From Sphingopyxis sp. (GTDB lineage Bacteria; Pseudomonadota; Alphaproteobacteria; Sphingomonadales; Sphingomonadaceae), in contig JAEULK010000092.1 in the NCBI GenBank assembly GCA_016793775.1, positions 118,549-182,548 on the forward strand: a stretch of 64,000 bases of DNA. Direction: 5' to 3'. Shown one piece after another: positions 35,533 to 44,254 of the stretch. The notes under the pieces were generated by a model. It was not told where the DNA came from, did not search any database, and saw only the letters and a list, made by a program, of their open reading frames with translations. The position numbers and the translations under genes are program-made. The stretch's first letter is position 1; every line of letters begins with the position of its first letter.

Positions 35533-37950
35533 ATGCCCCTCCCGCAAATCTTTACCGACTGGTTCGCCGCGCGCGGGTGGCGGGTGCGGCGGCACCAGGC
35601 CGAGATGCTGGCGGCGGCGGAGCGCGGCGAGCATGCCCTGCTCGTCGCGGCGACGGGGGCGGGGAAGACACTCGCCGGCTTTCTACCGACGCTGGTCGAT
35701 CTCGCCGCCCACCCCTCGGACCGGCTGCACACGCTCTATGTGTCGCCGCTGAAAGCGCTCGCCGCCGATGTCGAGCGCAATCTGACGGTGCCGATCGAGG
35801 AGATGGGGCTTCCGATCAGCGTCGAAAGCCGCAGCGGCGACACCAGTTCGGACAAGAAGGCGCGCCAGCGCAGCCGGCCGCCGAACATCCTGCTCACCAC
35901 TCCCGAATCGCTGTCGCTTCTGCTCTCCTATCCCGACAGCTTCACCATGTTCGCCGACTTGCGGACCGTGGTGATCGACGAGATCCACGCCTTTGCGCCG
36001 GGCAAGCGCGGCGACCTGCTGAGCCTCGCGCTGGCACGGTTGCAGCAAATCGCCCCCGGCATGCGCCGCGTCGGACTGTCGGCAACGATCGCCGATCCGG
36101 CGCAATATGCCGCATGGCTGGCGCCCGACGCCGCCGGCGAAAGCGTCACCCTCGTCGCGGGCGAGCCGGGCGCCGATCCCGATATCGCGATCCTGCTGCC
36201 CGAGGGCGCTGTGCCCTGGGCGGGGCATTCGGGGCGCTATGCGGTGCACCAGGTGATGGAAGAGGTCGCGAAGAACCGCACCACGATCATTTTCTGCAAC
36301 ACGCGCGGGCTGGCCGAGCTGATCTTTCAGGAATTGTGGAAGGTCAACGACCTCGGCCTGCCGATCGGTATCCACCATGGCAGCCTCGACCGCGAGGCGC
36401 GCCAGCGCGCCGAGCAAGCCATGGCGGAAGGCCGACTGCGCGCGCTGGTCGCGACGTCGAGCCTCGACCTGGGGCTCGACTGGGGCGACGTCGACTGCGT
36501 GATCCAGATGGGGGCGCCCAAGGGATCGTCGCGGCTGCTCCAGCGGATCGGGCGCGCCAACCATCGGCTCGACGAGCCGAGCAAGGCGCTGATCGTGCCC
36601 GGCAACCGCTTCGAATATCTCGAGGCGCAGGCGGCGCTCGACGCCGTGGCGGCGGGCGAGCGCGACGCCGACCGCTTTCGCCCCGGCGCGCTCGACGTGC
36701 TGGCGCAGCATGTGATGGCACTCGCCTGCGCCGCGCCCTTCGCGGAAGAGGAATTGCTGGCGGAGATTCGTTCGGCGGCACCCTACCGTTGGGTCAACGC
36801 CGCGACCTTTTCGCGGCTGCTCGGCTTCGTGCGCGACGGCGGCTATGCGCTCAAAAGCTATGACCGCTTCCGACGGCTGGCGGCCGATGGCCCCCCCGGT
36901 AAAGCGCGGCGCTGGCGCATCGCACACCCCCGTCTCGCGGCGCAGCATCGGCTCAACGCCGGGATCATCGTCGATGCGCCGACGCTCGACGTGCGCTTCA
37001 AAAACGGGCGCAGATTGGGCAGCGTCGAGGAATATTTCGCCAGCACCCTGAGCCCCGGCGACACCTTCGCCTTTGCGGGCCTCAGCCTGGAGGTCGAGGC
37101 GATCCGCGACATGGACCTGCTGGTGCGCGCGACGACGCGCCCCGCGCGCATCCCCTCCTATGTCGGCGCACGCATGGCGCTGACGACGCGGCTCGCCGAC
37201 CGGGTGCGGGGCTTCCTCGCCGATCCGGCGAGCTGGGCGCGCTTTCCCGAGGATGTGCGTTTCTGGCTGGAAATGCAGCAACTGCGCTCGGTGCTGCCGC
37301 GCCCCGGCGAATTGCTCGTCGAAACCTTCCCGCACGAGGGCCATCATTATCTGGTCGCCTATCCCTTCGAGGGATGGAACGCGCACCAGTCGCTGGGCAT
37401 GTTGATCTCGAAGCGTATGGAGCGCGCGGGGTTGCAGCCTTTGGGCTTCGTCGCGTCGGACTATGCGCTGGCGATCTGGTCGCTGCGCCCCGTCACCGAT
37501 CCCGCCGCGCTGTTCGACCCCGCGATCCTCGAAGACGAGTTCGTCGAGTGGGTCGAGGGCTCGCATTTGCTGAAACGCGCCTTCCGCGAGGTGGCAGTGA
37601 TCGGCGGCCTCATCGAACGCCAGCATCCGGGCAAGCGCAAGACCGGCAAGCAGGTCACGTTCTCCACCGACCTGATCTTCGACGTGCTGCGCAAATATGA
37701 GCCCGACCATCTTCTGCTCGAGGCCGCCTGGGCCGATGCGCGCGAGCGGCTGACCGACGTCGCACGGCTCGGCGACCTGCTCGACCGCGCGGCGGGGACG
37801 ATGCTCCACAAGTCTCTGGACCGGATCAGCCCGCTGGCGATCCCGGTGCTGGTGCTTATCGGGCGCGAGAATGTCGCGGCGGCGGATATCGACGATGCGC
37901 TGCTGGGGGAACTGGCGGACGAACTGGCCGCAGCCGCAATGCAGGCGTGA
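35533..37950 (+). CDS. Ligase-associated DNA damage response DEXH-box helicase (Lhr type)
   Basis: 805 aa superfamily 2 helicase. Walker A is ATGAGKT (40-46), motif II is DEIH (149-152), motif III is LSATIAD, and motif VI is QRIGRANHR. A long Lhr-specific C-terminal region (DUF-type WH and beta-barrel) follows. It belongs to the group found with PdeM and an ATP-dependent DNA ligase. Here PdeM is at 21858 and no ligase gene is in the window. It may unwind RNA:DNA or repair intermediates. The ATG at 35533 follows the palindromic element closely. Confidence 0.92.
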   Translation: MPLPQIFTDWFAARGWRVRRHQAEMLAAAERGEHALLVAATGAGKTLAGFLPTLVDLAAHPSDRLHTLYVSPLKALAADVERNLTVPIEEMGLPISVESRSGDTSSDKKARQRSRPPNILLTTPESLSLLLSYPDSFTMFADLRTVVIDEIHAFAPGKRGDLLSLALARLQQIAPGMRRVGLSATIADPAQYAAWLAPDAAGESVTLVAGEPGADPDIAILLPEGAVPWAGHSGRYAVHQVMEEVAKNRTTIIFCNTRGLAELIFQELWKVNDLGLPIGIHHGSLDREARQRAEQAMAEGRLRALVATSSLDLGLDWGDVDCVIQMGAPKGSSRLLQRIGRANHRLDEPSKALIVPGNRFEYLEAQAALDAVAAGERDADRFRPGALDVLAQHVMALACAAPFAEEELLAEIRSAAPYRWVNAATFSRLLGFVRDGGYALKSYDRFRRLAADGPPGKARRWRIAHPRLAAQHRLNAGIIVDAPTLDVRFKNGRRLGSVEEYFASTLSPGDTFAFAGLSLEVEAIRDMDLLVRATTRPARIPSYVGARMALTTRLADRVRGFLADPASWARFPEDVRFWLEMQQLRSVLPRPGELLVETFPHEGHHYLVAYPFEGWNAHQSLGMLISKRMERAGLQPLGFVASDYALAIWSLRPVTDPAALFDPAILEDEFVEWVEGSHLLKRAFREVAVIGGLIERQHPGKRKTGKQVTFSTDLIFDVLRKYEPDHLLLEAAWADARERLTDVARLGDLLDRAAGTMLHKSLDRISPLAIPVLVLIGRENVAAADIDDALLGELADELAAAAMQA

Positions 37951-38000
37951 AAGCGCGGGGAGGGGCCGGCGGAACAGGCACCGCACGCCCCGGATCGCTG

Positions 38001-38516
38001 CTACTCATACTCCACCGTCACCGGAATCCGCCCGCGATAATCGCCGTCGTCGAGGCCCGCGATCTGAAGGCGGCCGCCGAAGCGGAATTGCAGGCGCCCG
38101 TCGGGACCGAGGCGCGGCGCGGCGTTGAGGTCGGTGACGAGGCCCGACACCCGGGCGCTGCGACCGCGGTCGCTTTCGAGATCGACACTCGCCGGCAGGA
38201 TCACGCGCACCGCGGCCCCAGGTTCGCCGGTCACGGTGACGGTGCCGGTGACCGCGAAACCGCCCAAGTCGACGACGTCGCCGCGCAGGCGCCGCGCGCC
38301 CGACAGCGGATCGAGCTCGACCTCGCCGCCCATCGCGCCGACCGCGACGCGGCCCATGTCGAGCTGGGTTTCGACATCGACGCGCAGCGGGGTTTCGACC
38401 TTGCGCGTGCCGCCGCCGGTCGTGGTACCGGCGTCGCCGCAGAGCAGACATTGCGCGCCCGCATCCGAGGGCGCGGCCAGCAACAGGCCAAGGGCAAGGA
38501 AAAGGCGCGGTCCCAC
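38001..38516 (-). CDS. DUF4402 domain secreted protein
   Basis: 171 aa. A signal peptide (FLALGLLLAAPSDAGAQ) precedes CLLCGDAG, a vicinal cysteine pair. A beta-rich domain of the DUF4402 type follows (GTVTVTGEPGAAVRVILPASVDLES ... GRIPVTVEYE), similar in style to pilin-like or surface proteins. The start is GTG, the only suitable start in frame after an upstream stop; its SD overlaps it. It is divergent from the type III PKS gene, 95 bases apart. Confidence 0.76.
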   Translation of the reverse strand: MGPRLFLALGLLLAAPSDAGAQCLLCGDAGTTTGGGTRKVETPLRVDVETQLDMGRVAVGAMGGEVELDPLSGARRLRGDVVDLGGFAVTGTVTVTGEPGAAVRVILPASVDLESDRGRSARVSGLVTDLNAAPRLGPDGRLQFRFGGRLQIAGLDDGDYRGRIPVTVEYE

Positions 38517-38611
38517 CCCTCGGCGATAGCCGCTTCATGGTTAAGCCCCGGTAAAGCCGCGCGGGCGCTTATCCGCTGGCTTGCTCCCCGCTTTTCATCC
38601 AAAGCTGCGCC

Positions 38612-39682
38612 ATGCCCCCCGCTTCCCAGACCGCCTGGCTCAACGCGCTCGCCACCGCAACACCGGGCCATGACATCCATCAGGCCTTCATCGACTGGGC
38701 GACACCGCGGCCGACCGACGAGCGTGTCCGCGCTATCTTTGCGCGCATGGCGGCGCGATCGGGGATCGACCACCGCTGGTCGGTGCTGCCACCCACCAAG
38801 GACGGCGGATCGCCGGTGGCGCCGGGCGGTTTCTACGACGTCCCGGGCCTGCCGCCGACATCGGTCCGCATGGCGGCCTATGCCAAGCATGCCCCCGCAC
38901 TGGCGCTCGAGGCGATCGCGAAACTGGGCGACGCGTGCGACCCCGCGCGCGTCACCCATCTGGTCGTCGCGAGCTGCACGGGTTTCGTCGCGCCGGGGAT
39001 CGATCAGATCATCGCGCGCAAGCTGGGGCTGGCCCCCACCGTCGAGCGGGTGCTGATCGGCTTCATGGGCTGCTACGCCGGGGTCACCGCGCTCCGCAAC
39101 GCGCGCCATATCGTGCGTTCCGAACCCAATGCCGTCGTGCTGGTGGTGAGCGTCGAGCTGTCGACCTTGCACCTCAGCCTCGCCGACCAGCCCGAACCGC
39201 TGCTCGCGATGCTCCAGTTCAGCGACGGCGCCGCGGCGGGCATCGTGTCGGCCGACACGCGCGGGCTCGAACTCGGCGAGGGGCGCAGCCTCGCGCTCGA
39301 AGACAGCGACGACTTGATCCGCTGGGACATCGGCGACAAGGGATTCGAAATGCAACTGTCGGGCGAAGTGCCGGGGCGGCTGCGCGCCGCGCTTGGCGAA
39401 CCAGGGGTGCAGGCGCAGCTTTTCGACGGCGCGCCGCCACCCTTGCTCGCGGTCCACGCCGGCGGGCGTTCGGTGCTCGACGCGGTCGAGGCGGCGCTGC
39501 ACGTCCCCGCCGATGCGCTCGCCGACAGCCGTGCGGTGCTGGCGGCGTGGGGCAATATGTCGTCAGCGACGATATTGTTCGTGCTCGCGCGGATGATGGA
39601 ACGGGACGCAAAAGGCGAGGGGATCGCGATCGCCTTCGGCCCCGGGCTCGCCGCCGAGGCGATCCGCTTCACCGCGCCATGA
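38612..39682 (+). CDS. Type III polyketide synthase (chalcone synthase family)
   Basis: 356 aa ketosynthase that condenses a starter acyl-CoA with malonyl-CoA. The catalytic triad is Cys122 (VVASCTGFVAPGID), His282 (LLAVHAGGRSVLD) and Asn315 (WGNMSSATI). The overall layout fits bacterial alkylresorcinol/alkylpyrone or phenolic lipid synthases. It overlaps the next gene by four bases (ATGA), so the cluster of three is translated together. The product could be a methylated phenolic lipid or pyrone; the starter cannot be told from sequence. Confidence 0.93.
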   Translation: MPPASQTAWLNALATATPGHDIHQAFIDWATPRPTDERVRAIFARMAARSGIDHRWSVLPPTKDGGSPVAPGGFYDVPGLPPTSVRMAAYAKHAPALALEAIAKLGDACDPARVTHLVVASCTGFVAPGIDQIIARKLGLAPTVERVLIGFMGCYAGVTALRNARHIVRSEPNAVVLVVSVELSTLHLSLADQPEPLLAMLQFSDGAAAGIVSADTRGLELGEGRSLALEDSDDLIRWDIGDKGFEMQLSGEVPGRLRAALGEPGVQAQLFDGAPPPLLAVHAGGRSVLDAVEAALHVPADALADSRAVLAAWGNMSSATILFVLARMMERDAKGEGIAIAFGPGLAAEAIRFTAP

Positions 39683-40392
39683 CCCCCTTCGCCAACCTCG
39701 CCGCGCCGATCGAGGCCGAGGAGGAGATGGACGCGGTCGAGCTGGCACCCGATCGCTATGCCAAGGTGCTCGCCGACCTGTCGCGAATCAACGCATTGAC
39801 GCTGGCGGCGCGACCGACGCTCGGGTTTCTCGACCGGCTGCGCGCGCGCGGGATCGGCGCCAGGCCGTGGCGCATCCTCGACGTCGGTTTCGGCGCGGGC
39901 GACATGCTGGCATGGATCGCCCGCTGGGGCGACAAGCGCGGGGTCGCGCTCGACCTCGTCGGGGTCGATCTGAACCCCAAGAGCGCGCCGGTCGCCGAAG
40001 CGCGGCTCGGCAGACGCGCGCGCTTTGTCACCGGCGATTACCGCGATCTGGCGGGCGAGGGGTGGGACATCATAATCTCGAGCCTCGTCACCCATCATAT
40101 GACCCCCGATCAGCGGTCCGAATTCCTCCATTTCATGGACGTGGAGGCGGCGCGCGGCTGGCTGGTCAACGACCTTCACCGCCAGCGGCTGCCCTTCATG
40201 GGTTTTCCCCTGCTCGCCACGCTCGCGTGGGTCGACCCGATCGTCCGGCGCGACGGCCAGCTGTCGGTCGGGCGCAGTTTCCGGCGCGGCGAATGGGCGG
40301 TAATGCTCGGCGAGGCGCTGCCCGATACGGCGGCGCAATGCCGCATCTTCCGCAGCTTTCCCTATCGGCTCTGCGTCGAGCGGGTGCGGTGA
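39679..40392 (+). CDS. Class I SAM-dependent methyltransferase in PKS cluster
   Basis: 237 aa. The SAM motif is ILDVGFGAGDML, with an acidic residue in VGVDLNPKS ending the second strand and GDYRDLAGEGWDIIISSLVTHHM for motif IV. It probably methylates the polyketide made by the upstream synthase or a quinone-like product. The ATG overlaps the PKS stop (ATGA), and the stop overlaps the GTG of the oxidoreductase (GTGA). No other role is suggested. Confidence 0.88.
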   Translation: MTPFANLAAPIEAEEEMDAVELAPDRYAKVLADLSRINALTLAARPTLGFLDRLRARGIGARPWRILDVGFGAGDMLAWIARWGDKRGVALDLVGVDLNPKSAPVAEARLGRRARFVTGDYRDLAGEGWDIIISSLVTHHMTPDQRSEFLHFMDVEAARGWLVNDLHRQRLPFMGFPLLATLAWVDPIVRRDGQLSVGRSFRRGEWAVMLGEALPDTAAQCRIFRSFPYRLCVERVR

Positions 40393-41483
40393 TCCCGCCC
40401 GACGCGCTGGTCATCGGCGCCGGGCCCGCCGGGGCTGGGGCCGCGATCGGGCTGGCGCGCGGCGGCGCGAAGGTCCTGCTGCTCGAACGCGCGCGCGAAA
40501 CCGGCGACGCGCTGTGCGGCGGTTTCCTGAGCTGGCAGTCGCTGGCGCGCCTCGAAGAATTGGGGATCGATAGCGATGCGCTCGGCGGGCAGGTCGTGCG
40601 GCGAGTGCGGCTGTTCGCCGGGCGCGCGCGCAGCGAGACCATGCTGCCCGCAGTCGCGATGGGCGTATCGCGGCTGCGGCTCGATTCGGCCTTGCAGGCG
40701 GCGGCGATAGCGGCGGGCGCCGGGCTGGAGCGCGGGGTCCATGCGACCGCGCTGGAGGACGGCGCGGTGCAGACGCGGGACGGTGCGCGCCTGGCGGCAC
40801 CGTCGGTCTTCCTCGCGGCGGGCAAGCACGGCTTTCGCGGGATCGCACGCGAGCCGGCGGCGTGGCAGCGCGCCGATCCGGTGATGGGGCTGCGGCTGCG
40901 CCTGCCGCCGCAGCCCGCGCTCGACCGGCCGATCGGCGATGCCGTCGAGTTGCACCTCTTCGATCGCGGCTATGCCGGGCTGGTGCGGCAGGAGGATGGC
41001 AGCGCCAATCTGTGCCTCGCGGTCCACAAATCGCGTTTGGATACGACGCCCGAGGCCCTGCTGCGCGCGCTCGGCGAGCAGAATCCGCACCTCGGCGAAC
41101 GGCTCGCCTTCGCCGACTGGAGCGCGGCGATCGATGCGATCGGCCATGTTCCCTATGGCTGGCGCGACGGCGTCACGACGCCCGGCCTGTTCCGGCTGGG
41201 CGATCAGGCCGGGGTGATCCCGAGCCTGGCGGGCGAGGGCATGGGCATCGCGCTCGCCAGCGCCGAAGCCGCGGTGGCGGCATGGCGGCACGGCGGGGCG
41301 GGCACGGCGCCGGACTTTCAGCAGCGGCTGGCGGCGCGCATGGCGCGCCCCTTCGCGCTCGCCAATCTGGTGTGGCGGACCGGCGAAAGCCGCCTCGGCG
41401 CCGCGCCGATGGTCCGAATCGCCGCCTTTGCGCCGCCGCTGGTACGCGGGATGACGCGCGCGACGCGGCTGCCCGGCGGCTGA
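40389..41483 (+). CDS. FAD-dependent oxidoreductase in PKS cluster (geranylgeranyl reductase-like)
   Basis: 364 aa flavoprotein. The Rossmann motif is VIGAGPAGAGAA with a Glu in LLLER. The family motif GDALCGGFLSWQSLARLEELGI and the C-terminal FRLGDQAGVIPSLAGEGMGIAL resemble geranylgeranyl reductases and related monooxygenases. With the PKS and methyltransferase it probably tailors the product by reduction or hydroxylation, as flavoproteins do in phenolic lipid pathways. The GTG start overlaps the upstream stop. Confidence 0.87.
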   Translation: MIPPDALVIGAGPAGAGAAIGLARGGAKVLLLERARETGDALCGGFLSWQSLARLEELGIDSDALGGQVVRRVRLFAGRARSETMLPAVAMGVSRLRLDSALQAAAIAAGAGLERGVHATALEDGAVQTRDGARLAAPSVFLAAGKHGFRGIAREPAAWQRADPVMGLRLRLPPQPALDRPIGDAVELHLFDRGYAGLVRQEDGSANLCLAVHKSRLDTTPEALLRALGEQNPHLGERLAFADWSAAIDAIGHVPYGWRDGVTTPGLFRLGDQAGVIPSLAGEGMGIALASAEAAVAAWRHGGAGTAPDFQQRLAARMARPFALANLVWRTGESRLGAAPMVRIAAFAPPLVRGMTRATRLPGG

Positions 41484-41589
41484 CCCGGTTGTTGGTCCGG
41501 CCCTTGCAGACGCGGACGTCCGGCCCGATATTGTAACCGACGGCAGCGCAGCGACGAAATCGCCCGCTAGCCGCTAGGAGACACTCCAT

Positions 41590-41997
41590 ATGACCGACCC
41601 GAAAACGACGAAGCCGCTCGACCCGATGGCGCATCATGTGCTGCGCGAGGGCGGCACCGAGCGCGCCTTCACCGGCAAATATACCGACCATAAAGGCGAC
41701 GGCGTCTATCGCTGCGCCGGCTGCGGCGAACCCCTGTTCGACAGCCGAACCAAGTTCGACAGCGGATCGGGCTGGCCGAGCTATACCGCGCCGGCCGAGG
41801 GCGGCGCTGTCACCGAGCTGACCGACACCAGCCACGGCATGGTGCGTACCGAAGTGCGCTGTGCGAAGTGCGAAGGCCATCTCGGCCATGTCTTCCCCGA
41901 CGGCCCCGGACCGACCGGGCTGCGCTATTGCATCAACAGCGCGGCGCTTGACTTCGCGGACCGTGGGCAGGATGACGCCAAGACCGACGCGGGCTGA
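41590..41997 (+). CDS. msrB: Peptide-methionine (R)-S-oxide reductase MsrB
   Basis: 135 aa. Reduces methionine-R-sulfoxide in proteins. The zinc site is two CxxC pairs (Cys42/45 and Cys91/94), and the catalytic cysteine is Cys114 in [11 protein letters not shown]. The segment [10 protein letters not shown] is the family signature. The ATG has TAGGAG upstream. It stands alone; the 106-base gap before it holds no clear terminator. Confidence 0.96.
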
Positions 41998-42067
41998 CGG
42001 GCCAGCCCTCGTGCGGACGAGTTCGGGTTGACGCGGACAGGGACGTGGCGAGGGAAGGATATCGGCT

Positions 42068-44254
42068 TTGCGCCGCGAGAGACAGCAGGCTTCGTCAGGG
42101 AAATCGTCAGGTAGCGCCCAATCGGGCGGATCTCCTTCCAAGGGCGAGCCGCCGCGCTGGCGCGTCTGGCTGCGCCGTGCGGTGCGCTGGGGCCTCGGCC
42201 TCGCCTTCCTCGGCCTCGTCGCGCTCGCGGTCGCGGTCGGTATCGCGGTGCAGCGCATCCCGAGCTTCGAGGAGCTCAAGAAATCGCCGGCGGGCCAGAC
42301 GGTGCGCGTCCACGCCGCCGACGGCACGGTGTTCCTGTCGCTCGGCCCCAATTACGGGCGCTGGCTGACGCTGCGCGAAACGCCGCAGGTAATGCAGGAC
42401 GCGATGGTCGCGGTCGAGGACCGGCGGTTCCGCTATCACCCCGGGGTCGACCCCGTCGGGATGACGCGCGCCGCGGTCGTCGCGGTGCAGAACCGCGGCA
42501 GCGGCCGCCGCCTGCAGGGCGCCTCGACGATCACCCAGCAGCTCGCGCGCAACGTCTTCCTGTCGAACAGCTATACCTGGACGCGCAAGCTGCGCGAGAT
42601 GGTGCTGTCGATGGCGCTCGAATGGAAATTCTCGAAGGACGAGATCCTCGAGCTCTATCTCAACAAGGTCTATTTCGGCGGCGGCAGTTACGGCATCGAT
42701 GCCGCGTCGCGGCGCTTCTTCGGGCATAGCGCGACCCAGATGTCGCTGTCCGAGGCCGCGGTGGTCGCGGGGCTGGTCAAGGCGCCGTCGCGCTATTCGC
42801 CGACCGCCGACGCCGGCGCCGCGCTGGGCCGCGCCGGGGTGGTGCTGGCGGTGATGGTCGATGCCGGGGTGATCACCCAGGCACAGGCCGACGACGCCAG
42901 ACCCGCCGACGTCCAGATGGCGCAGGAAACGGGCCAGAACAGCGCGCGTTACTTCAGCGACTGGGCGCTGCCGCAGCTCGACATGCTGATCGACGAAGGC
43001 AGCGAGGCGATCGACGTTTATACCACCATCGACCTCAACATGCAGCGCGCGGCGACCGCGGCGATCCAGGCCAATGTGCCCGGCGGCGCGCAGGGTGCTT
43101 TGGTGTCGATCGACCGCGACGGCGCGGTGCGCGCGATGGTCGGCGGCACCGACTATGTCGCGTCGAACTACAACCGCGCGACCCAGGCGACGCGCCAGCC
43201 GGGATCGGCGTGGAAGCTGTTCGTCTATATGGCCGCGCTCGAGGCGGGGTATAAGGTCGATGACGAAGTGGTCGACGCGCCGGTGACGATCCGCGGCTGG
43301 AGCCCGCGCAACTCGTCGGGGCGCTTCGCCGGCGCGATGGATCTGCGCACCGCCTTCGCCTATTCGGTCAACACCGTCGCCGCGAAGCTGGGCGACGAGG
43401 TCGGCACCTCTTCGGTCGCGAACATGGCGCGGCGCTTCGGCATTTCGACCCCGATCAACACCCAGCCCGCGATGGTGCTGGGCAGCAGCGAAGTCCGCGT
43501 GATCGACATGACCGCCGCCTTTGCCGCGGTGTCGCGCAAGGGCGTGTCAGCGGCGCCCTATGGCATTACCAAGGTCACCACCGCCGACGGCCGCCTGCTC
43601 TATCAGCGCGCGCCCGAGCGCGGTACGGTGCTGGTCGATAATTGGGTCGCCGCAGGGATCACCGACCTGATGCAGACCGCGGTCGCCACCGGCACGGGCC
43701 GCGCGGCGCAGATCGGCCGCCCCGTCGCCGGCAAGACCGGCACGACGTCGAGCAACAAGGACGGCTGGTTCCTGGGTTTCTCCAGCGGGCTGACGACGGG
43801 CGTGTGGATGGGCCGCGACGACGCCAAGGCGGTCGGCGGGCTGCAGGGCGGCCGCGCGCCGGCGAAGGCCTTTGCCGATTTCATGCGCGTCGCGGTCGCG
43901 CGGCGCCCGGTCGAGCAGTTCGATACCGAGGTCAAATTGCCCGACTGGCAGCTCGAGGAAGAGGATGACGCCTATTTCGGCGAGCCGGGCGAGGGCGGGC
44001 TGGTCGACGAGAACGGCATGCCGATCGAGCTGCCCTATGACGGCCGCCCGCCCGCGGCCCCCGATGATGGCGCCCCGCAGGAGGCGCCCGAGAATGGCCC
44101 GGTGCTCGACCAGCGCTGGCTCGACGAACAGACCGGGCGCCCCGAGCCGGCACCCAAGGCCCCGCAAACTCCCGCGAACAAGGCGCTGCCGCCGGCGGTG
44201 AAGAGTTCGACGGTGCGGGTGCCGCCGCGCGATGGGAGCAATCCGGGAAATTGA
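42068..44254 (+). CDS. Class A penicillin-binding protein (PBP1A-like, bifunctional)
   Basis: 728 aa peptidoglycan synthase. One N-terminal transmembrane helix, a glycosyltransferase domain with catalytic Glu117 (VEDRRFRYHPGVD) and GASTITQQLARNVFL, then a transpeptidase domain with SxxK at Ser380 (PGSAWK), SxN (YSVNT) and KTGTT at Lys556. A Pro-rich low-complexity tail of about 100 residues closes the protein. The start is TTG, with GGGAAGGA upstream. The lack of a clear ODD insertion suggests a PBP1C/1A-like rather than an E. coli PBP1A form. Confidence 0.92.
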   Translation: MRRERQQASSGKSSGSAQSGGSPSKGEPPRWRVWLRRAVRWGLGLAFLGLVALAVAVGIAVQRIPSFEELKKSPAGQTVRVHAADGTVFLSLGPNYGRWLTLRETPQVMQDAMVAVEDRRFRYHPGVDPVGMTRAAVVAVQNRGSGRRLQGASTITQQLARNVFLSNSYTWTRKLREMVLSMALEWKFSKDEILELYLNKVYFGGGSYGIDAASRRFFGHSATQMSLSEAAVVAGLVKAPSRYSPTADAGAALGRAGVVLAVMVDAGVITQAQADDARPADVQMAQETGQNSARYFSDWALPQLDMLIDEGSEAIDVYTTIDLNMQRAATAAIQANVPGGAQGALVSIDRDGAVRAMVGGTDYVASNYNRATQATRQPGSAWKLFVYMAALEAGYKVDDEVVDAPVTIRGWSPRNSSGRFAGAMDLRTAFAYSVNTVAAKLGDEVGTSSVANMARRFGISTPINTQPAMVLGSSEVRVIDMTAAFAAVSRKGVSAAPYGITKVTTADGRLLYQRAPERGTVLVDNWVAAGITDLMQTAVATGTGRAAQIGRPVAGKTGTTSSNKDGWFLGFSSGLTTGVWMGRDDAKAVGGLQGGRAPAKAFADFMRVAVARRPVEQFDTEVKLPDWQLEEEDDAYFGEPGEGGLVDENGMPIELPYDGRPPAAPDDGAPQEAPENGPVLDQRWLDEQTGRPEPAPKAPQTPANKALPPAVKSSTVRVPPRDGSNPGN

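Follow-up and report, generated by a model that had tools for sequence, protein, structure and literature searches.

The 64,000-nucleotide stretch of Sphingopyxis sp. DNA analysed here (the window; contig JAEULK010000092.1 of assembly GCA_016793775.1) contains a three-gene operon, the trio, encoding a type III polyketide synthase (PKS), a class I S-adenosylmethionine (SAM)-dependent methyltransferase (MT) and a flavin adenine dinucleotide (FAD) oxidoreductase (Table 1). An earlier note made from the sequence alone had described three packed genes with overlapping stop and start codons, and this description was borne out, with the frames where it had placed them and the overlaps reading ATGA and GTGA. 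Guanine-cytosine content by codon position in the trio genes (0.866-0.882 at third positions, 0.492-0.573 at second positions) follows the pattern of real genes, and the PKS is the sole PF00195 match in its own genome (3.93 Mb, 106 contigs).

Table 1. Features at the PKS-MT-FAD locus, in window positions.
Feature	Position	Strand	Details
Type III polyketide synthase (PKS)	38612..39682	+	356 amino acids; Cys154-His282-Asn315 triad
Class I SAM-dependent methyltransferase (MT)	39679..40392	+	237 amino acids; nearest NCBIfam model NF004851
FAD oxidoreductase (FAD)	40389..41483	+	364 amino acids; GTG start; Cys43; Gly145-Lys146
PKS/MT stop-start overlap	39679..39682	+	ATGA
MT/FAD stop-start overlap	40389..40392	+	GTGA
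Left flank	38001..38516	-	171 amino acids; outside operon
Right flank	41590..41997	+	outside operon

The grouping of the three genes is far beyond chance, with all 80 of 80 genus genomes concordant and the order PKS-MT-FAD kept in 126 of 131 distinct trio loci. In the Sphingopyxis group, searched with cut-offs of 1e-3 for the PKS and 1e-20 for the other two proteins, each gene was found in 55 of the 80 genomes (the window's own included); these are the same 55, as a comparison of the lists by eye showed, and the remaining 25 have none of the three. Of the 70 genomes with a completeness of 90% or more, 52 carry each gene. Absence from close relatives, or genes that do not move together, was an outcome that the earlier note had seen as damaging to its reading; the genes were always found together. 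In the 18 more complete of the 25 genomes without the trio, the left and right flanking genes of the window adjoin in 11, at distances of 135-410 bases (the left one is partial in one genome), the left flank adjoins the following gene in one, and it was not found in six, where about 1.4-1.5 kb was examined. Because the trio is all-or-none across the genus and the flanks are adjacent in 11 of the genomes without it, the operon seems to be gained or lost in one piece. Single in-frame stops in the FAD match of three genus genomes (G013, G026, G064) and a PKS match split in two pieces in two others (G019, G063) reflect either decay or sequencing error.

The conservation of gene order in sphingomonads, which the earlier note had proposed as a check, extends to the family, where 35 of 40 chosen loci read PKS-MT-FAD. 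A PKS match at E <= 1e-3 was present in 184 of 298 family genomes and 70 of 96 genera, a count that also takes in a second class of PKS, more remote from that of the window. Of 535 loci, 80 named ones were retained, and in 78 of these tblastn found all three genes; one of the two exceptions ends at a contig edge, and in the other no MT was found in 21 kb. Because almost every relative was retrieved with the PKS of the window or its Paludisphaera counterpart as query, these counts do not describe an unbiased sample; several loci represent the same genome twice, and distinct loci were counted by PKS core sequence. Reading frames overlap between PKS and MT in 97 of 127 distinct same-strand trio loci, and between MT and FAD in 116 of 128. 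In the 131 distinct trio loci in which all three proteins are 200-430 amino acids long (a set that excludes, for example, the Paenibacillus locus), the pairwise distances in each protein track those in the other two (r = 0.90-0.91, versus at most 0.174 in 500 permutations), a correlation to which shared species history contributes.

Beyond the family, PKS matches at 1e-30 or better were found in 41 of 385 genomes of the class, 13 of them close (1.7e-89 or better, own genome included) and 28 at 30-38% identity; in the 17 of these 28 distant loci examined by hidden Markov model (HMM) scan (L093-L109), no MT or FAD protein of the trio families lies within about 1.5 kb. At the level of the phylum, E-values of 1e-40 or less were reached in 12 of 398 genomes, including one that does not belong to the class. 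The lineages carrying the trio comprise Alphaproteobacteria, a Psychrobacter, and plasmids of Planctomycetota, Deinococcota and Bacillota. Plasmid copies occur in Roseomonas, Methylobacterium, Mesorhizobium, Deinococcus radiodurans, Paludisphaera and Paenibacillus, and a Psychrobacter plasmid carries the trio with the FAD and MT genes turned round. Each of the 22 plasmid records in which tblastn (E <= 1e-5) found a flavoprotein relative also bears the PKS. Among the 184 loci with a PKS, three with a frame outside 320-420 amino acids were left out of the tree and the residue counts, leaving 160 distinct PKSs including that of the window. In a tree of 68 chosen rows (two of them identical), the PKSs of trio loci form one clade of 48 rows (support 99/97, midpoint root), with one planctomycete represented and some long branches (L215, L222), and 20 PKSs without the trio fall on the opposite side. 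One further PKS without the trio, from Hyphomicrobiales bacterium UR115 (L204/G409), is among the 48 rows of the trio clade and carries its residue signature, described below, with no MT or FAD gene of the trio families found in 18 kb.

The PKS is a chalcone-synthase-type protein (Chal_sti_synt_N 78.9 bits, Chal_sti_synt_C 56.2 bits; cut-off 27 for both) with the Cys154, His282 and Asn315 expected of a type III enzyme. The earlier note was right about His282 and Asn315, whereas its third catalytic residue, Cys122, was ruled out by alignment: the nucleophile is Cys154 in the motif GFMGCYAG, which aligns with Cys175 of Pks18 (counted on the alignment), and Cys122 aligns with Ser143 of Pks18, an acyl-tunnel residue (PMC6274091). 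Ala127 replaces a Met of the plant enzymes, as it does in Pks18. Trp238 occupies the resorcinol-determining position of ArsB (ArsB 281) and is present in all 133 of 133 distinct trio PKSs. Met247, placed by alignment to 3awj, stands at what we take to be the Phe265 position of chalcone synthase, as in the HidC clade (3.2222), and is found in 130 of 133. With the window left out of the count, 129 of 132 distinct trio PKSs carry the full signature Cys122-Ala127-Met247, versus one of 21 PKSs without the trio, that of UR115.

The window trio is a real, well conserved, lineage-wide operon of an already known kind. The cyanobacterial hidABC operon, associated with hierridin B in Cyanobium sp. LEGE 06113 and others, encodes an MT (hidA), an oxidoreductase (hidB) and a PKS (hidC; HidC accession QBC65480), and its genes may run hidA>B>C or hidC>A>B (PMC8086630). 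The window has the same enzyme set, adjacent and in the hidC>A>B type of order, and shares with the HidC clade the Met at the Phe265 position; the host differs, and the likeness was drawn by description rather than by direct protein comparison. In planctomycetes, 58 PKS genes lie in an operon with oxidoreductase and MT genes (mtr-fdo-t3pks) whose proteins are 48-55% identical to the Hid proteins, and PKSs of this operon or a variant of it from G. maris, R. baltica and S. maiorica produced 5-pentadecyl- and/or 5-heptadecylresorcinols in a heterologous host (PMC10896814). The MT and FAD pair of G. maris added one methyl group, probably on carbon (PMC10896814). The window PKS, MT and flavoprotein are 34-36% identical (BLASTP) to the Paludisphaera plasmid copies, the PKSs fall in one clade, and the MT and flavoprotein share their best NCBIfam models with Paludisphaera, with all scores under the cut-offs; the order there is MT-FAD-PKS, as opposed to PKS-MT-FAD in the window, and the tested planctomycetal PKSs come from species other than Paludisphaera. 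In Acetobacteraceae the same T3PKS-MT-FAD trio has been described from genomes with its metabolite unknown (PMC8776678), and a Roseomonas plasmid copy is 47% (PKS), 38% (MT) and 39% (FAD) identical to the window proteins.

The earlier note, whose interpretation is partly supported, had likened the set to srsABC-type logic for methylated phenolic lipids. Its sequence of steps, from PKS product through methylation to oxidation by a flavoprotein, stands as the likeliest reading, and srsABC of Streptomyces griseus and pkqA-C of actinomycetes resemble the window in having a PKS followed by an MT and an oxidoreductase and in the Trp at the ArsB 281 position. The closest described operons found in this analysis, in which the tailoring genes of srsABC and pkqA-C were compared by description, are the cyanobacterial hid genes and their planctomycetal counterparts and not srsABC. 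Five actinomycete plasmid PKS loci considered as srs/pkq types were set aside, as they are annotated as other clusters.

Kinship with the resorcinol-making planctomycetal operon, together with Ala127, Trp238 and Met247, leads us to predict a 5-alkylresorcinol core that would then be methylated and oxidised on the ring. The PKS would take a long-chain fatty acyl group, bound to coenzyme A (CoA) or to an acyl carrier protein (ACP), add three malonyl units and cyclise the chain to a 5-alkylresorcinol; the MT would methylate the ring or the hydroxyls; and the flavoprotein would oxidise the ring, to give a phenolic lipid of the methylated alkyl hydroquinone/quinone type that is probably located in the envelope. 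We infer each of these chemical steps, as well as the biological role. Methylation is the step that we expect with most confidence and a long-chain resorcinol core seems probable; ring oxygenation by the flavoprotein is favoured by a smaller measure, and the whole, a hid-type operon making a lipid of this class, is a reasonably probable assignment. The earlier note had called the product probably new or at least unassigned: none is assigned in sphingomonads in the open-licence literature searched, but with the hid and planctomycetal operons as its nearest described counterparts, the class of the product can be predicted and is probably not entirely novel.

The MT matches Methyltransf_25 (43.1 bits, cut-off 27) and, best among NCBIfam models, NF004851 (PRK06202, 'hypothetical protein') at 128.6 bits, under the cut-off of 243. 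The MT model does not distinguish C- from O-methylation, its best matches being a mixture of plantazolicin methyltransferase, ChlM, Coq5 and various O-methyltransferases. The flavoprotein has the p-hydroxybenzoate hydroxylase-type fold of group A flavin aromatic hydroxylases and matches FAD_binding_3 (30.4 bits, cut-off 22), and its Cys43 is kept in 129 of 131 loci. Its best NCBIfam match is the geranylgeranyl reductase family, TIGR02032, and the resemblance to such a reductase seen in the earlier note is thus genuine; identity as a true geranylgeranyl reductase was unsupported, the score of 90.3 bits being below the cut-off of 158.8. That shortfall also counts against the idea that the flavoprotein is a reductase saturating a double bond of the chain or acting on another lipid, rather than a ring oxygenase, which we regard as unlikely. 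At two Deinococcus loci (L214:7815-8957, L219:6887-8044) the third-gene slot is filled by an FAD_binding_3 monooxygenase with a DG motif, not by a geranylgeranyl-reductase-like protein, and this is the best hint of an oxygenation step. The FAD protein of D. radiodurans reached only 33 bits by HMM, and that of D. psychrotolerans was undetected by HMM, its locus being counted as PKS plus MT. Hierridin B, moreover, carries two O-methyls introduced by HidA and, on its ring, an additional hydroxyl (PMC10896814), and HidB would be the likely maker of this hydroxyl.

The predicted structural model of the flavoprotein (pLDDT 93.7) matches squalene epoxidase, halogenases, hydroxylases and a geranylgeranyl-reductase-like protein in Foldseek. 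The E-value ranks squalene epoxidase first, whereas Z places halogenases ahead of monooxygenases, with the reductase-like protein close behind. Flavin-dependent halogenases of this kind carry a WxWxIP motif; this is absent from the flavoprotein, which contains no WxW at all, and a halogenase identity was unsupported. A halogenated phenol as product is very improbable on these grounds, and chlorination in hierridin C has been ascribed to an unknown mechanism despite the presence of hidB (PMC8086630). The other alternative concerns the PKS, which might form long-chain alkylpyrones by lactone cyclisation, later O-methylated and oxidised as in myxobacterial alkylpyrones. One residue can switch cyclisation between close type III PKSs (ArsB/ArsC), and, according to a passage in PMC8776678 that cites a paper on uncommon alkylpyrones, some type III PKSs of myxobacteria likewise come with MTs and flavin monooxygenases. 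The invariance of Trp238 in trio PKSs and the resorcinols obtained from planctomycetal relatives in the same kind of operon speak for a resorcinol, and we consider an alkylpyrone quite unlikely.

Several observations weigh against a methylated, ring-oxidised resorcinol. Trp238 cannot serve as a diagnostic residue, as it also occurs in 20 of the 21 PKSs that lack the trio, and we dropped it as proof of resorcinol formation; Pks11, which shares this Trp, was deposited as an alpha-pyrone enzyme, a point in favour of the alkylpyrone. Group A flavin aromatic hydroxylases have a DG motif; it is absent from the window's flavoprotein family, in which GK stands instead in 126 of 131 distinct loci (Gly145-Lys146 in the window), and the electron donor and reaction could therefore differ. 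The fold leaves the reaction unsettled as well, because the Z and E-value rankings favour different enzymes. Identities to the Paludisphaera proteins are modest, and neither the MT nor the flavoprotein of the window reaches the cut-off in any of its NCBIfam matches. Two of the six PKSs tested, which branch with HidC and lie outside the operon, yielded no product; no oxidation was detected when the G. maris oxidoreductase was co-expressed, its role being left open; and deletion of the S. maiorica PKS produced no growth or ampicillin phenotype (all PMC10896814). In the open-licence literature searched, no product is reported for any sphingomonad.

The earlier note had reported that no fatty-acid gene is adjacent to the trio, and reading of the neighbouring frames, made without a family search, agrees, none being seen. 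The right-flank frame reads as what we take to be an MsrB-like protein. A scan for promoters and terminators found no promoter-like site at the locus and one terminator-like site, not above shuffles, and positions 37900-42100 gave zero Rfam matches at the gathering threshold. In three relatives (L065:5557-6998, L071:8080-9569 and, on S. yanoikuyae plasmid pKN1, L224:4563-5995), the PKS gene is immediately preceded by genes for an ACP and a beta-ketoacyl synthase that seem to belong to its operon, which suggests acyl-ACP starters in those three; a dedicated starter supply there is possible, and HidC is described as starting from a C14 acyl-ACP (PMC8086630). In 50 loci, most of them picked because they lie outside the msrB site, other neighbouring gene families recur in 7 at most, as judged with a crude gene caller. 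On Sphingobium indicum pSRL1 (L225:8935-13014) and on a Methylobacterium oryzae plasmid (L216:6367-8007), the trio has efflux transporter genes next to it, as would suit a product that is exported or toxic. On a Mesorhizobium plasmid, a cyclopropane-fatty-acid-synthase-like gene follows the trio (L223:8990-10264) among transposase genes.

The enzyme set is common to several phyla and, within the Sphingopyxis group, to more than half of the genomes, and we found no product assignment for it in Alphaproteobacteria. Polyketide quinones are reported to be electron carriers in actinomycetes (PMC9927152), and by analogy a polyketide quinone might serve beside ubiquinone as an alternate respiratory carrier, a second quinone pool in Gram-negative bacteria, with one subgroup using the dedicated upstream ACP and ketosynthase for its starter; we offer this as a speculative and rather improbable extension. 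The trio also provides a likely context for the MT family NF004851, which is still named 'hypothetical protein'. Published passages that mention antiSMASH 'T3PKS' matches in Sphingomonas, Sphingobium and Novosphingobium genomes do so with no named product, and the link to the hid and planctomycetal operons turns such an anonymous genome match into a concrete prediction, that of a methylated, oxidised long-chain resorcinol.

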